Below are positions 5,698 through 11,070 of a stretch of 21,147 bases of DNA, piece by piece. Both the position numbers and the translations under genes were made by a program. The number at the start of each line of letters is the position of its first letter. Position 1 is the first letter of the stretch. Source of the DNA: a virus. Location of the stretch: positions 1 to 21,147 of the IMG/VR virus record IMGVR_UViG_3300029268_000158. The stretch is one strand, 5' to 3'. The notes beneath the pieces are model-generated. The model saw only the letters and a program-made list of their open reading frames with translations, made no database searches and was not told the DNA's origin.

Positions 5698-6315
5698 ATG
5701 TACGTTGAGATATCTCCCAGACAATCAGGTAAAACAACAAGGTTAATAGAGACTGTCATAAATCATTTACGTCAAGATGATTACGCTAGAATTGTTATCG
5801 TTGCCTCATCAATAGGGCAACTTCGCTTGATTAAAGAAAAAATTAAAATAAAAATACGTGAAATAACAACACCTAATTGGGGTGGAAGTGTTGAGAACCT
5901 TGAATTATTGATCGATGAATTTTATTTAAGAAGGGTGGAAACAGTATTTGACGTTAATTTGTTAAGAAGTTTAAGGGTTGATTATTATTTTTTCGATGAT
6001 TTTTCTTTTCTCGAACCAAGAAGAATTATGCTTAACAATAGTATTATAGAAAACGGTTATTATTATACAACCCCCACGGATAGACGCTCAACAATCGATA
6101 TGATTACTAATTATTGTTTAATAAACGATATTAATATAAATTATTTTAATACTTGGACCGAATCTAGACTCAGAGAACAAGAAGCGTTAAGTCCTTATCT
6201 TAGAGAACATGTTCTTGAATATTGGAGTAATTATATGGAATCAATAGGTATTACCACTAATAATTTAAAAGAAAATTGGCTAACAAAAATAATTAAAAAA
6301 CATAGATTTGTTTAA
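5698..6315 (+). CDS. Small P-loop ATPase, terminase-like N-terminal motifs
   Basis: A 205-residue P-loop NTPase. The extreme N-terminus carries SPRQSGKTTRLIE (residues 6-18), a Walker A motif of the form seen in phage terminase large subunits, where an Arg/Gln precedes the loop. A hydrophobic strand follows (RIVIVASS, about 31-38) and then YYFFDDFSFLEP (about 97-108), a Walker B. YYYTTPTDRRS (about 122-132) resembles a coupling motif after Walker B. The protein is about half the length of a terminase large subunit and lacks a nuclease domain, so it is not a complete terminase; it could be a helicase-like or packaging-related ATPase. It starts 1 base after the tail-tube-like gene and abuts the Mom-like gene with no gap. 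Confidence 0.6.
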   Translation: MYVEISPRQSGKTTRLIETVINHLRQDDYARIVIVASSIGQLRLIKEKIKIKIREITTPNWGGSVENLELLIDEFYLRRVETVFDVNLLRSLRVDYYFFDDFSFLEPRRIMLNNSIIENGYYYTTPTDRRSTIDMITNYCLINDININYFNTWTESRLREQEALSPYLREHVLEYWSNYMESIGITTNNLKENWLTKIIKKHRFV

Positions 6316-7116
6316 ATGAAATACCAGTTCCAAATAAAAGAAGTTAATCGAATAATCGCAACAGATTTTGTTCAAGAAAGACATTACTCAAAAGTAATGC
6401 CAAAATTAACCAAACATTGGTTAGGTTGTTTTTTAGAAGAAGAATTGGTTGGTATTGTGACTTTAGGTTGGGGTACACAACCACTACAAACAATTAAAAA
6501 GTTATTCCCTGATTTAAAATCGGGTGATTATTATGAGATTGGAAAAATGTGTATGGATGAAAAAATGCCAAAAAATTCCGAATCCCAAATGTTATCTGCT
6601 GTCGTTAAATGGATGAAAAAAAATCTACCAGAAAAAAAGTTTTTATTTACTTGGGCTGATGGCATTGTTGGTAAAGTTGGTTATGTTTACCAGGGTTCTA
6701 ATTTTAATTATGGTGGCTTTATTTGGACTGATATCTATATATCGCCAACAGGTGAAAAGATTCACCCTAGAAGTTCAAAAAGTTTGTTAAAAGAAAACGC
6801 TGAGTTTTTGGGTAAAGATAAATTATTTTGGATGACACCTGATTTTATGGCAATTAAAGGTATCAGACGGATTAGAGGTAAACAATTTAGGTATATCTAT
6901 CCTTTAAATAAAGAGGCAAAAAAAATTCTAACAAATAGTTCAACGGTTAGTTGGCAACAAAAATACCCAAAAGAAGTGGATTTATTATGGAAAGAACAAA
7001 TGGGAAAAGGTTTATATGTTAATCTTGTCGGTAAACCCGAAATGGATTTAAGCATTGTTGAGTATAACGAAAAGAATGTTAATGCTCACAAAAAACAAAC
7101 GGTTAACGATAAATAG
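6316..7116 (+). CDS. Mom-like DNA-modification / GNAT-fold protein (first copy)
   Basis: A 266-residue protein with the pattern of the phage Mu Mom family. Mom converts adenine in DNA to N6-carbamoylmethyl-type adenine, protecting phage DNA from restriction, and has a GNAT-like acyltransferase fold. Visible features in order: ERHYSK (21-26), the conserved HY; EELVGIVTLG (42-51); YEIGKMCMDEKMP (73-85); a long helix SESQMLSAVVKWMKKN (88-103); LFTWADG (110-116), the strand with a polar aspartate; YVYQGSNFNYGG (123-134), the GNAT-like Y-x(n)-N-F-x-Y-G motif; and RGKQFRYIYPL near 190, like the Mom KHRY ending. The C-terminal 70 residues are extra. It abuts the ATPase gene. Other GNAT-like transferases are possible. 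A second copy is at 10477. Confidence 0.7.
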   Translation: MKYQFQIKEVNRIIATDFVQERHYSKVMPKLTKHWLGCFLEEELVGIVTLGWGTQPLQTIKKLFPDLKSGDYYEIGKMCMDEKMPKNSESQMLSAVVKWMKKNLPEKKFLFTWADGIVGKVGYVYQGSNFNYGGFIWTDIYISPTGEKIHPRSSKSLLKENAEFLGKDKLFWMTPDFMAIKGIRRIRGKQFRYIYPLNKEAKKILTNSSTVSWQQKYPKEVDLLWKEQMGKGLYVNLVGKPEMDLSIVEYNEKNVNAHKKQTVNDK

Positions 7117-7678
7117 TTAAAGAACCGACTTTGTAATCGTAAACACCTTTAATGGTAACAAACTCAACAAAATAAATATAGACACCAGTTGTGATATCCA
7201 AACCACCTACGGTACCATCCCAAACAAAACCCATATCATCAGTTTTATAAACCAAACCACCCCAGTTATTATAAACCGAAATAACCATGCTTTCGATATA
7301 ATAACCTACAGGTCGCCAAGTATCGTTTAAACCATCACTATTAGGTGTAAAACTATTTGGTATGTAGACTACTGGTATACGACAAGGTATTACTTTAATA
7401 ACATACTCTTGTGTTTCAGACTCACAAAGTTCGTTTTCTGAAAAAACAGTTATTTCATAATTACCTTCTTTTTCAAAAGTGTAAGTTATTTTTTCTGTTT
7501 TAAAAGTTCTAATTAAACGATTATTCAATTTAATCACCCAACTATAATCACAGTTTGGTGTACCTAACGAATAATAGGTGAATGTTTTATTACTATCTTC
7601 ACATAATTCTACAATTTGATTCTGTGAGTACAGATTTAAAGTGATTAATAAAAATAATAGTGTTAATAATTTTTTCAT
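7103..7678 (-). CDS. Secreted protein with T9SS type B (CHU_C) sorting domain
   Basis: A 191-residue exported protein. It begins with a signal peptide (MKKLLTLLFLLITLNLYSQ, residues 1-19). Residues about 25-96 look like a PKD/Ig-like beta domain (YSWVIKLNNR, then YTFEKEGNYEITVFSENELC). Residues about 104-191 are a gliding-motility-associated C-terminal domain (CHU_C, TIGR04131): YIPNSFTPNSDGLNDTWRP, VYNNWGGLVYKTDD, VWDGT, GVYIYFVEF, and the final VGSLTIYR. In Bacteroidota this domain sends a protein through the type IX secretion system to the outside of the outer membrane. In a phage it suggests either host-surface delivery during infection or capture of a host fragment. It overlaps the convergent Mom-like gene by 14 bases and follows the upstream PKD-like gene by 1 base. 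Confidence 0.88.
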   Translation of the reverse strand: MKKLLTLLFLLITLNLYSQNQIVELCEDSNKTFTYYSLGTPNCDYSWVIKLNNRLIRTFKTEKITYTFEKEGNYEITVFSENELCESETQEYVIKVIPCRIPVVYIPNSFTPNSDGLNDTWRPVGYYIESMVISVYNNWGGLVYKTDDMGFVWDGTVGGLDITTGVYIYFVEFVTIKGVYDYKVGSLTIYR

Positions 7679-7679
7679 T

Positions 7680-8144
7680 TTAGTTGTGTTCTATAGGTAA
7701 TAACATTGGTTGAGGAAATACATTTACTGACATTACACTTACAAAAGTACATCCTGCATTATTATAAGTATAAGTTAAATTAAAGGAACTAGAACCACTT
7801 GTGGTGGGACAAAATTCATTCCCTAAAACACCGATACCAGACCAAACACCCCCTGTTGGGTTACCATTTAAAGTAACACAGTTACCACCTTCACACATAT
7901 TAGGTAAAAGGGTTAATACGGGGTTGACGTTGTATATAAAAACATTCAGTGTAACAACAGGACTTAAACAACCTATATTGTTAGAGGCTTGAACCTGTAC
8001 GGCATTTGGTATTAAACCAGGGTTAGCCCCCGACCAATCCACTTCGATCTGATTCGTGCCTTGACCACTAGTAATAACACCTGGAACTAATACATCCCAA
8101 ATGTAAGTTAACCCTGCCGTTGGTGTTACGTTATAAATCGACAT
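7680..8144 (-). CDS. PKD/Ig-like secreted protein, 5' end broken by frameshift
   Basis: The intact frame from the ATG at 8144 encodes 154 residues of extracellular beta-domain type: PTAGLTYIWDV, then AVQVQASNNIGC, then GNPTGGVWSGIG and YTYNNAGC, matching the PKD-like and SprB-type repeats of Bacteroidota surface proteins, with paired cysteines. The 8144 ATG gives no signal peptide and is probably not the true start. The same frame is open upstream and reads AQFTTVNPDTVCYQTG just before this ATG; a typical signal peptide (MKKLLLLLTLLPSLV) lies directly upstream in another frame. One extra T near 8192-8197 would join them into a 187-residue precursor. The domain lacks a sorting domain of its own and may be anchored via its downstream neighbour. 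Confidence 0.65.
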   Translation of the reverse strand: MSIYNVTPTAGLTYIWDVLVPGVITSGQGTNQIEVDWSGANPGLIPNAVQVQASNNIGCLSPVVTLNVFIYNVNPVLTLLPNMCEGGNCVTLNGNPTGGVWSGIGVLGNEFCPTTSGSSSFNLTYTYNNAGCTFVSVMSVNVFPQPMLLPIEHN

Positions 8145-8191
8145 GCCTGTTTGATAACATACCGTATCGGGATTTACTGTAGTAAATTGTG

Positions 8192-8239
8192 CTAAACCAA
8201 ACTTGGTAGTAGTGTTAAAAGTAGTAGTAATTTTTTCAT
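8192..8239 (-). pseudogene. Signal-peptide exon-like start displaced by a one-base deletion
   Basis: From the ATG at 8237-8239 (minus) the frame encodes MKKLLLLLTLLPSLV and then meets TAG at 8192-8194. The downstream -1 frame continues as GLAQFTTVNPDTVC and into the PKD-like protein. Adding one T to the TTT before AGC turns GTTTAGCA into GTTTTAGCA, giving SLVLAQ, an ideal signal-peptidase site that matches the neighbours' endings (LYSQ). So either this gene is inactivated, or the deletion is a sequencing/assembly error, or there is programmed frameshifting; no classical slippery heptamer is obvious. Confidence 0.65.
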
Positions 8240-8241
8240 AA

Positions 8242-8355
8242 TTAAAATTGTTTGTTCCAGTATTTTGGTGGTATTTGTTTTATTTGATCACGGAATATTT
8301 TTAGAAACTTTAAAAATTGTTTTTTTAATTTTTTGCTCTTCTTCTTTTTACTCAT
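8242..8355 (-). CDS. Small lysine-rich ORF, 37 residues
   Basis: Minus-strand ATG at 8353-8355 opens a 37-residue frame, starting MSKKKKSKKLKKQFLKFL and ending PPKYWNKQF, which stops 2 bases before the displaced signal-peptide start. It lies between two secreted-protein genes and 1 base after the stop of the upstream one. It is strongly basic with a probable amphipathic helix. No family is recognised; it could be a real small protein (membrane-active or nucleic-acid binding) or simply an open spacer. It does contain lysine-heavy, A-rich codons, unlike the flanking secreted genes. Confidence 0.4.
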   Translation of the reverse strand: MSKKKKSKKLKKQFLKFLKIFRDQIKQIPPKYWNKQF

Positions 8356-8356
8356 A

Positions 8357-8950
8357 TTAATTATGGTTTATGTTTGTTATATTAGGCAAGGCCGTGTTTA
8401 TTACTCCGTTATAAATTGTAAATGGAGTCGTTGGGCAAGAGTTATTAATCCAGTTACCCCAATCACCATCTGCTCCCGCTGTTACTTGTATTGATAGATT
8501 TTGTGGTGTACATACGTTAGCAACGGTTACCGTAAAACAGAACGACCAAGTACATGAACCTGAGTCACCCCAATCATCTGCTGGGTTATTATTTAATGGG
8601 CCACTTATACCAGAATCAAAAAACCAACCTGGTCCTACTAATCCTGATGGCGTAAAATTATTTAACATCCAAACCCAATTACCACCACCTCCTTGACAAT
8701 TTATTGGTGGTGCTGCCTGTTGTAAACCAACCCATCCTGGTCCTAAGTTAATATCAAAACCCTCCAACCAGTTGGATCCCACATTTAATCCAGGCCACCC
8801 TGTCATTGTATAACAAACAGTTACAACAGTTCCTGGTGTATATCCAACCACCGGAGGTACCGGATTAAGTGTAAATGTTTGAACACCAACGCACTGACTA
8901 TATAGTGTGTTACTTATTAAAAACAATATATATAATAAAATTTTTTTCAT
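8357..8950 (-). CDS. Secreted Gly/Trp/Asn-rich surface protein of Bacteroidota type
   Basis: A 197-residue exported protein. A signal peptide (MKKILLYILFLISNTLYSQ, residues 1-19) precedes a mature part starting CVGVQTFTLNPVPP. The body is rich in Gly, Trp, Pro and Asn and shows VVTVCYTMTGW, GSNWLEGFDINLGPGW, DDWGDSGSCTWSFCFTVTV and VTAGADGDWGNW, with several cysteines likely paired outside the cell. This pattern is familiar to me as an N-terminal beta domain of Flavobacteriia gliding-motility-associated (CHU_C-bearing) surface proteins, but I cannot name the domain. Here it stands alone without a sorting domain. The start overlaps the stop of the upstream gene by 4 bases (ATGA). Local G+C is visibly higher than in the replication genes. 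Confidence 0.75.
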   Translation of the reverse strand: MKKILLYILFLISNTLYSQCVGVQTFTLNPVPPVVGYTPGTVVTVCYTMTGWPGLNVGSNWLEGFDINLGPGWVGLQQAAPPINCQGGGGNWVWMLNNFTPSGLVGPGWFFDSGISGPLNNNPADDWGDSGSCTWSFCFTVTVANVCTPQNLSIQVTAGADGDWGNWINNSCPTTPFTIYNGVINTALPNITNINHN

Positions 8951-9624
8951 ATTTTAGATATTAAATCATAACCATCTATAACTTCAACATTGTGATCATA
9001 CACAATAGATAACTTTCTTTCTTTATCTCTTTCATTTTCAAGATTTTTATAACTTGAAATTAAAAGTAATTTTTTGTCTCTTTGGTCAGCGTCCATACTA
9101 CTATATCTTGTGTCAGAGGTATTCCAATTTAAACATTCAATGGTAAAAATCGAATCAACTTCTCTAGTTGTTAATCTCACCCCGTTTTTTTTGTGATACC
9201 ACTTAAAACCTAATTCAAACAGTTTTTTTTGTAAAGAATAAGTTTGCTCAATACCAATACCGTTTTCAAAAAGAATAATAAAACCAGTTTTTAAAATTGG
9301 TTGACCCATTTCATTAAGTCCTACTTTTTTAATTTTAAGATCATCTTTCCAAGAAAAATCTTCTTTAAAAACTTTAACAAGACCTTTAGATGCTAAATCT
9401 TCTAAATAAGACTTACCAAGAGCCGCATGACCATGACCATTTACATCTGTAAACACATAAGCCTCATAAGACCCCCTACTACCATAATCCGTTGTATATT
9501 CAGGGTCAAACTTTAAAAAAATAAGGGTTTCCCAATTATTACCTGATTTAATTAAATACTTTTTACCTGGAACAAAAATTAATTTATCCATTTCGGGTAA
9601 CCAACTGTAATCGTCTTCAAACAT
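8947..9624 (-). CDS. Hypothetical protein heading the secreted-protein cassette
   Basis: Unrecognised 225-residue protein, acidic and apparently cytoplasmic: no signal peptide. The N-terminal half (about 15-85) has a strand-rich section, KKYLIKSGNNWETLIFLKF then SYEAYVFTDVNGHGHAALG, which could be a small beta domain. The C-terminal half has LFELGFKWYHKKNGVRLTTREV and a helix-rich end. It is the first gene of the minus-strand run and overlaps the start of the exported Gly/Trp-rich protein by 4 bases, so they are probably co-transcribed and translationally coupled. Codon composition looks like the other phage genes rather than the secreted ones. A plain AAAATG-type leader is seen; no promoter of TTG-N19-TAnnTTTG type is visible upstream. 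Confidence 0.7.
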   Translation of the reverse strand: MFEDDYSWLPEMDKLIFVPGKKYLIKSGNNWETLIFLKFDPEYTTDYGSRGSYEAYVFTDVNGHGHAALGKSYLEDLASKGLVKVFKEDFSWKDDLKIKKVGLNEMGQPILKTGFIILFENGIGIEQTYSLQKKLFELGFKWYHKKNGVRLTTREVDSIFTIECLNWNTSDTRYSSMDADQRDKKLLLISSYKNLENERDKERKLSIVYDHNVEVIDGYDLISKI

Positions 9625-9683: not shown

Positions 9684-10484
9684 ATGAATAAAATCCAAAA
9701 AATAATTCACGTAGCCGACCTTCATATTCGTTTATTTAAAAGACATGAAGAATATAAGGAACAATTCCAAAAATTCTTTGATGAATGTCGAAAACAACAA
9801 CCTGAACGTATTGTTATATGTGGGGACGTTTGCCATTCTAAAAATACGGTAACGCCAGAATTAATTAGTATGGTGACTTCTTTTTTTAATGAATGTACTA
9901 AAATAGCAAAAACAGTTGTTATTTTGGGTAATCATGATTTTTTGGTTAACAACTTAGATAGAATGGATACCTTAACACCAATTTTTGAAAGTATGCAAAA
10001 CCCAGATATTATTTTTTTAAAACACACAGGTTGTTATGAGGATGAAAACATTGTTTGGTGCGTCTATGGACATATGGAAGGTTCTCAAAGACCAGATATT
10101 GAGAAAGCAAAAACAGAGTTTGGTGATGATAAAACTTATGTTGGTTTATATCACGACCCATTGGTTGGTTTAAAAACGGCAATAGGGTTTGAGTTTGAAG
10201 ATGGAAATGATATTTCTATCTTTGAAGGTTGTGATGCGGTAATGTGCGGGGATATACATTTATACGATGTTATGTATCATAGAGAAACACCTATTGTAAT
10301 GCCAGGTAGCATGATTGCCCAAGATTTTGGTGAAAAGGTTAAAGGTCATGGTTATGTTTTATGGAATGTTAAAGATAGAACACATAAACAAATAGATATC
10401 CCATCAGATTATGGTTTTTACACTTTTAAAATAAAATCTATTGAAGATATCGAAAACGAATCTGAAAAGTTAGTAAATGCCTAA
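9684..10484 (+). CDS. gp47: Recombination endonuclease subunit, T4 gp47/SbcD/Mre11-like
   Basis: A 266-residue calcineurin-like metallophosphoesterase, the nuclease subunit that pairs with the gp46-like ATPase to process DNA ends for recombination-dependent replication. All metal-site motifs are present in order: DLH at D12-x-H14 (HVADLHIR), GDVCHS with D48, GNHD at 82-85, H157 in YHDPLVG, and GDIH at 189-192, followed by MPGSM around 206-210. Order and spacing match T4 gp47 and SbcD; it is somewhat shorter than T4 gp47 (339 residues), mainly at the C-terminus. The gene overlaps the second Mom-like gene by 8 bases (ATGCCTAA), so the two are likely translated together. The gp46-like partner is not adjacent but about 1.5 kb downstream. 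Confidence 0.92.
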   Translation: MNKIQKIIHVADLHIRLFKRHEEYKEQFQKFFDECRKQQPERIVICGDVCHSKNTVTPELISMVTSFFNECTKIAKTVVILGNHDFLVNNLDRMDTLTPIFESMQNPDIIFLKHTGCYEDENIVWCVYGHMEGSQRPDIEKAKTEFGDDKTYVGLYHDPLVGLKTAIGFEFEDGNDISIFEGCDAVMCGDIHLYDVMYHRETPIVMPGSMIAQDFGEKVKGHGYVLWNVKDRTHKQIDIPSDYGFYTFKIKSIEDIENESEKLVNA

Positions 10485-11070
10485 AGGTGATTTTAACATA
10501 CAAAAAATAACCAAAAAAGAGGCCGCAACCATCTTATTACAGTACCATTATTTAAAAGATAAATCTAAAACTTTTAAAAGTGGTTACAACTATGGTTTAT
10601 TTAAAAACGGTGAACTATTAGGTGCTATTGTTTTTACGGGTTTACCAGTACCTGAGCTGAGTAAAGGGATGTTGGGTTTAGAGAGAAACCAACAGGAAGG
10701 TTTATTTGAATTAAGCAGGTTATGCGTTCATCCAAAAATTCAAGGCCAAGAACATAACATCACAAGTTGGTTTGTTAGTCGAAGTATTAGAAGTTTACGT
10801 AAAGAAACTGAGGTTAGATTAATATTAAGTTATGCTGACGCAGAATACCATGAAGGCGTTATTTATAAAGCGTGTAATTTCACTTATTATGGTTTAACCG
10901 ATGCTAAAAAAGATTTTTGGATTTACCAAGAAGATGGTTCTTATGTTAAACATTCCAGGGGTTCGGTTAAAAATTTAAAAGGTGAATGGCGACCTAGGAG
11001 TAGAAAACATCGGTACATACTATTATTTGATAAAAATTTAAATATTAAATGGAAATCCCCTACGAATTAA
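10477..11070 (+). CDS. Mom-like DNA-modification / GNAT-fold protein (second copy)
   Basis: A 197-residue protein closer to the Mom pattern than the copy at 6316. Features in order: LLQYHYLKD (20-28) with the HY motif; NGELLGAIVFTGLP (44-57); LFELSRLCVHP (76-86), the substrate/cofactor-binding strand; SWFVSRSIRSLRK (97-109); LILSYADAEYHEGVIYKACNFTYYG (positions 115-139), with the S-Y-A-D strand and the H-x-G-x-I-Y and N-F-x-Y-x-G motifs; and RPRSRKHRYILLF near the end, the typical R-K-H-R-Y closing. In phage Mu, Mom makes a carbamoylmethyl adenine that blocks restriction. Its placement overlapping the gp47-like nuclease gene by 8 bases and its downstream overlap of 22 bases indicate a tightly coupled unit. 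The modified base and cofactor here are unknown. Confidence 0.75.
   Translation: MPKGDFNIQKITKKEAATILLQYHYLKDKSKTFKSGYNYGLFKNGELLGAIVFTGLPVPELSKGMLGLERNQQEGLFELSRLCVHPKIQGQEHNITSWFVSRSIRSLRKETEVRLILSYADAEYHEGVIYKACNFTYYGLTDAKKDFWIYQEDGSYVKHSRGSVKNLKGEWRPRSRKHRYILLFDKNLNIKWKSPTN

Follow-up and report, generated by a model that had tools for sequence, protein, structure and literature searches.

The 21,147-base IMG/VR virus contig IMGVR_UViG_3300029268_000158, analysed here over its full length and referred to as the window, carries a minus-strand run of genes in which three, termed A, B and C, probably encode a three-subunit complex that is displayed on the surface of the infected Bacteroidota cell by way of the host type IX secretion system (T9SS). 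In the proposed mechanism, Sec signal peptides would export A, B and C each to the periplasm, a short C-terminal tail on A would dock on the first immunoglobulin (Ig)-like domain of B, and the tail of B would dock in turn on the first domain of C, which is homologous to that of B. Only C bears a type B T9SS sorting domain; it would take the whole assembly through the host T9SS, and a host PorP/SprF-like shuttle would fix the assembly to the outer membrane. The A position is exchangeable, and in other phages unrelated secreted proteins that end in the same tail take its place. The corresponding features of the window are as follows.

8357..8950, minus strand: gene A (tip), 197 amino acids (aa), with a signal peptide, one Ig-like beta-sandwich and the tail ..TNINHN-COOH.
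8360..8374, minus strand: codons of the A C-terminal tag, NINHN.
7680..8239, minus strand: gene B (adaptor), with two Ig-like domains and the tail ..LLPIEHN-COOH; PKD_6 match at E 1e-8.
7947..8177, minus strand: first Ig-like (PKD_6) domain of B, the proposed acceptor for the A tail.
7683..7697, minus strand: codons of the B C-terminal tag, PIEHN.
7103..7678, minus strand: gene C (anchor), 191 aa, with a signal peptide, an Ig/PKD-like domain and a type B T9SS sorting domain.
7385..7621, minus strand: first (Ig-like) domain of C, homologous to B domain 1 and the proposed acceptor for the B tail.
7118..7363, minus strand: CHU_C, the type B C-terminal domain (CTD), C residues 106-187 (Pfam).

The C protein scored well above the curated cut-offs of both Pfam CHU_C (PF13585; 55.6 bits against a cut-off of 27, E 5.7e-15) and NCBIfam TIGR04131 (47.4 bits against 35, E 1.6e-12). 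Signal peptides were called by eye, from a charged start, a hydrophobic run and an S/A-Q cleavage site, and not with a dedicated predictor. By this measure the N terminus of C, MKKLLTLLFLLITLNLYSQ..., is a Sec signal peptide, aligned relatives begin similarly, and the signal peptides of A and C are both intact in the window. No match to CHU_C, TIGR04131 or Por_Secre_tail was found on A or B; having no type A or type B sorting domain of their own, these two proteins are therefore not classed as T9SS substrates themselves. A gave no family match in Pfam, PHROGs or NCBIfam, and no PHROG match, and hence no structural PHROG, was obtained for A, B or C.

An earlier, sequence-only reading of this DNA had described positions 7103-9624 as a run of three exported proteins, the last with a full CHU_C sorting domain. 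The sorting domain and the signal peptide that precedes it are borne out, as is a minus-strand run ending in the CTD protein, and three of the four open reading frames (ORFs) in the run are secretory; but the ORF at 8947-9624 has no signal peptide, and that of B is broken in the window. The middle gene had been taken as the listed ORF at 7680-8144, which proves to be what is left of a longer gene that starts with the ATG at 8239. A frame change near 8195-8202 disrupts the signal peptide of this gene, a break that the reading had missed along with the three-subunit logic and the breadth of the cassette's distribution. The B signal peptide is intact in all other relatives whose gene start is present. 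Loci from two further metagenomes (L002 and L003) share an identical 12.5-kb stretch with the window, so the break belongs to the population or is systematic, rather than being a random assembly slip. A programmed frameshift was considered and set aside, no canonical slippery site being recognised by eye; the frame change is more probably a natural break or a systematic error of sequencing.

The feature that would couple the three proteins is the C-terminal tail, which on stand-alone A and B has the consensus L-[S/G]-P-I-x-H-N-COOH and was defined as a class by residues -2 and -1. Among 417 distinct ORFs from the initial loci, 41 ended in H[N/D/Y], all of them A- or B-position proteins; in an enlarged set the count was 60 of 576. 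Because these early loci had been chosen with the window's A, B or C, the count was repeated on loci from a scan with the C profile only, in whose choice the upstream genes played no part and which are included in a combined set of 1190 distinct ORFs. In the combined set the tail was present on 58 of 59 A proteins and 71 of 73 B proteins, and on none of 74 C proteins or nine single-chain fusions. Among ORFs that matched no profile it was found on 10 of 975, comprising nine secreted proteins of the cassette and one unrelated ORF; outside the cassette, that is, the tail occurred on a single ORF of 966, an unrelated one of 160 aa in L127. The nine tailed secreted proteins are non-homologous to A (the glycine-rich L040, L042 and L149; L044; L074; L076; L098-L100). 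Three facts do not depend on the class definition: nearly all A and B proteins have the tail, C and the fusions lack it, and isoleucine stands at -4 in 59 of 60 tails. At the codon level the tail is diverse, with 44 distinct 15-mers in 60 tailed proteins, which argues that selection on the protein maintains it.

The three untailed A and B proteins all come from two phages. In L125 (3022-5573) B ends in ..LNSDN and the upstream secreted protein in ..LYSDQN, and in L128 (3847-5564) A ends in ..SPIFH and B in ..SPIYKQ; the variant tails thus resemble each other within each phage. The last residue of the tail also pairs between A and B as HN/HN, HD/HD or HY/HY, with exceptions in L011 and L068, a suggestive sign of covariation. 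The open-access literature, a coverage that mostly leaves out subscription papers and preprints, yielded no description of either a split type B cassette or the C-terminal tail; to our knowledge this short conserved tail appears to be previously undescribed, and the coupling principle itself has a substantial chance of being new.

Docking of A on B and of B on C would require B and C, but not A, to share an acceptor, and the domain comparison matches this expectation. Alignment of B domain 1 with C domain 1 in hhalign gave a probability of 96.8% (E 2.2e-10), and the seven other pairs compared, including A against B and C, gave 3.3% or less. Natural fusions preserve the same arrangement: A, B and C form one chain, in the same order, in L027, L028/L032 and L030. 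At the A/B joint of L027 the sequence reads ..TSPISH-VM-DTVC.., where split relatives have ..SPISHN-stop and then a mature part beginning ..PDTVC.., which points to the tail as a remnant or precursor of a linker between neighbouring domains. In other phages the A position is occupied by galactose-binding-like, glycine-rich or PKD proteins. One locus, L076 (6001-12155), is rearranged, with a short B/C hybrid first and then a tailed 451-aa protein; it also encodes two further secreted proteins (589 and 762 aa) whose C termini are similar.

The AlphaFold2 model of A is an Ig-like beta-sandwich with a mean predicted local distance difference test (pLDDT) score of 82, in which the tail block is poorly ordered (pLDDT 52), a modelled feature that would favour docking. 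A fold search with A returned general Ig-like pilin, adhesin and integrin folds only (Z up to 9.5). A solved-structure match of A to carbonic anhydrase was weak (E 0.007) and was not believed. For B, the model of the L009 homologue is a well-ordered pair of Ig-like domains (mean pLDDT 88.5) that resembles tandem Ig proteins, among them the GhpA grappling hook.

Searched with protein A alone, IMG/VR yielded 8 loci, and profile scans yielded 27 loci for A, 43 for B and at least 571 for C, on contigs of up to 436 kb. The sequence-only reading had called type IX substrates unusual in such a phage, which holds for annotated phage records (relatives of C in 3 of 50,697) but not for IMG/VR, where they are common. 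It had also proposed looking for the same cassette in related phage genomes, and the cassette was indeed found, at the same genome place in L009 and L015, which come from other metagenomes, and in many other phages. The order A-B-C recurs in many contigs of Bacteroidota phages in unrelated contexts; in L021 tail sheath and tube-like genes immediately precede the cassette on the same strand, L018 has it close to an M23 peptidase, and in L022 its neighbourhood includes a thymidylate synthase-like gene (identified by eye). The huge phages LR745206 (L048, 634 kb) and LR756502 (L049/L050, 642 kb) hold four and three CHU_C proteins, respectively, among them related single-chain versions of about 730 to 1,670 aa.

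Comparison of L006 with L007 showed A to be 92%, B 97% and C 49% identical, against a median of 42% for the other shared genes, and a long DNA-level match between the two covers the cassette. On this evidence the cassette moves between phages, which is the accessory exchange by which a phage moron is recognised. Across most pairs C is more variable than A and B, which would fit adaptation to host shuttles. Ratios of nonsynonymous to synonymous substitution (dN/dS) of 0.05-0.38 over 21 pairs indicated purifying selection on all three genes. An integrase search found a tyrosine recombinase in 3 of 18 large records, so most of these phages, but not all, look lytic.

That the segment is host DNA wrongly binned as viral, or a chimeric assembly, might be supposed from its domains, which are typical of Bacteroidota cell-surface proteins. 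This origin is ruled out by the shared place in L009 and L015, whose synteny with the window excludes both possibilities raised in the sequence-only reading, and its residual probability is negligible; it is also at odds with the hundreds of viral loci (at least 571 with a C relative) and with the failure of two scans to find any A relative among 84,980 species genomes of bacteria and archaea, although these scans were pattern-limited and distant relatives could escape them. The same reading had offered virion parts as an alternative, and A, B and C could in principle be decoration proteins or fibre tips built from host-type Ig domains. Ig-like domains are frequent in virions, and the cassette of L021 stands among tail genes. 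This alternative is nonetheless disfavoured, and we regard it as quite improbable, since all the parts carry signal peptides and the CTD directs secretion; tailed-phage virions assemble in the cytoplasm, no structural PHROG was matched, and the location of the cassette varies, from Mom- and SbcD-like genes to M23 peptidase and thymidylate synthase-like genes. Another explanation dispenses with mutual binding: the tail itself would be an export or processing signal, and A and B would cross the outer membrane independently. Like a sorting signal, the tail is C-terminal, short and portable among unrelated secreted proteins. Against this, fusions lose the terminal tail, L027 keeps a recognisable relic of it at the joint, the tail is found beside C-type proteins that bear a CTD of their own, and B and C share an extra homologous domain missing from A, as docking predicts; an export signal is accordingly judged unlikely. 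Delivery to the host surface by type IX secretion, as the sequence-only reading had suggested, is the reading best supported by the sequences, in view of the Sec signal, the type B CTD, the Bacteroidota-type domains and the conservation of the cassette both at one genomic site and among phage lineages.

The benefit to the phage is a separate matter, for which blocked adsorption (of other phages, or to cell debris) and adhesion of the infected cell are the leading guesses and seem about equally likely. It is possible, if rather short of an even chance, that the same surface complex serves to attach infected cells to particles, surfaces or new hosts, or to alter gliding, rather than to exclude phages. 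The folds resemble pilin and adhesin Ig domains and the GhpA grappling hook, A-position tips include PKD, glycine-rich and galactose-binding-like domains, and SprB-type adhesins use type B CTDs (PMC12618676). A is, however, well conserved between phages and under purifying selection, while C varies most.

Several observations weigh against the proposed display of an A-B-C complex. In L017, A runs straight into other repeats and a CTD, with no B between them. The tail of B is modelled as a confident coil (pLDDT about 89), although this is neutral on docking. With its B signal peptide out of frame, the window phage may make no working B. No PorP/SprF gene (PF11751) was found in 26 phage records, in a search that had no positive control, and use of a host shuttle is inferred from this absence. 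Thirteen Bacteroidota plasmid records match the fused form, mostly in the CTD; use of the tail by bacteria was checked in five plasmid stretches and none had it, the one ORF there that ends in HY being an unrelated one of 66 aa. Finally, export of such a non-covalent complex by the T9SS is a premise that the sequences can only suggest. Display of the three-subunit complex still seems the probable outcome. The broader proposal, of a modular platform in which one CTD anchor (C) and an adaptor (B) present exchangeable tips, coupled by a P-I-x-H-N-COOH tag and exported non-covalently by the T9SS, is about evenly balanced between true and false.

If the proposal is true, hundreds of Bacteroidota phages, some with genomes among the largest known, rebuild the surface of a living host with exchangeable parts. 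It would represent a new route of surface-protein assembly, in which a C-terminal tag is read by an Ig domain, and would mean that the T9SS is able to export assembled complexes; surface remodelling by lytic phages would become directly testable, and the tag could serve as a tool for protein display on Bacteroidota.

Other genes of the window are phage genes, including primase-like, PD-(D/E)XK nuclease, thioredoxin, SbcC/SbcD-like, sigma-70 factor and two Mom-like genes. The minus-strand run sits between a Mom-like gene (6316-7116, plus strand) and an SbcD-like gene (9684-10484, plus strand) and reads, from its 5' end, a 225-aa ORF, A, B and C. The stop of the 225-aa ORF overlaps the start of A (ATGA), which suggests that the two lie on one transcript in the window's lineage. 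A homologue of this ORF, 70% identical, occupies the same place in L009, and a matching ORF the same place in L015. The gap between A and B holds a 37-aa ORF in the window and longer genes in L009, L010 and L015; in L009, L010, L015 and L040 the same run includes an added type A T9SS protein. The additional features in and around the cassette are as follows.

8947..9624, minus strand: upstream ORF, 225 aa, with no signal peptide and no Pfam family.
8242..8355, minus strand: lysine-rich short ORF, 37 aa, between A and B.
L009:1868-3088, L010:6604-7812 and L015:6601-7842: extra secreted gene between A and B, with a PKD domain and a T9SS sorting domain of type A; the window lacks it.
L011:6612-7454: Omp28-family lipoprotein between A and B.

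Two different Mom-like proteins (6316-7116 and 10477-11070; Pfam Mom E 2e-53 and 3e-29, respectively) flank the cassette region and suggest that the window phage has unusual DNA modification. A 386-aa protein at 4095-5255 matches DruA of the Druantia anti-phage defence (Pfam E 7e-15) and a PHROG of unknown function (E 2e-90); it is 93% identical in L009 and is an odd cargo for a phage to carry and conserve. The 205-aa protein at 5698-6315 resembles the N-terminal ATPase part only of a T4-type large terminase and is kept at the same place in L009 and L015.

Phage-encoded T9SS cargo has already been published for Cryophage (Bellas et al. 2020, PMC7468147). As far as the accessible part of that account extends, Cryophage resembles the present phages in encoding proteins with T9SS sorting domains that are proposed to use the host system, in variable, island-like genes; it differs in that its sorting domains are of type A and lie on single proteins with enzyme or PA14 domains, and that part reports no split A-B-C cassette, type B CTD or shared C-terminal tail (PMC7468147). 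T9SS sorting domains also occur on proteins of crAss-like phages, near BACON proteins, but these are situated around head genes, and the available portion of the source describes no cassette or tail (PMC6949934).

Among bacterial systems, the closest parallels to C are SprB, Fjoh_3952 and other type B substrates of Flavobacterium johnsoniae, which likewise combine a Sec signal with a TIGR04131 CTD (PMC12618676, PMC9143113). Type B CTDs need PorP/SprF-like shuttles, one of which can be shared by orphan type B substrates (PMC12618676), and PorP-like proteins serve as the outer-membrane anchors of type B proteins (PMC9143113). Orphans without a neighbouring shuttle gene thus exist in F. johnsoniae, but its type B substrates are single chains, mostly with an adjacent PorP/SprF-like gene (PMC12618676, PMC9143113), whereas the cassette divides the chain among three proteins and has yielded no shuttle gene. 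In the grappling-hook protein GhpA of Aureispira (PDB 9flp and related entries), the C terminus gives a match (E 3e-14) to the type B CTD of C, and the Ig domains resemble B; GhpA is, however, one bacterial chain of 5,898 aa, and the match reflects shared domain types only. The likeness to donor-strand (chaperone-usher) pili is limited to the idea of a tail completing its neighbour; no usher or chaperone genes were noticed beside A, B and C, and no model for them was run. Phage T5 offers a functional analogy only: its superinfection-exclusion protein Llp is a periplasmic lipoprotein with no T9SS, Ig domains or multi-part assembly, yet there too a phage-encoded protein is exported to the host envelope, and this lytic phage thereby alters the envelope and stops further adsorption to infected cells and debris (PMC9586334).

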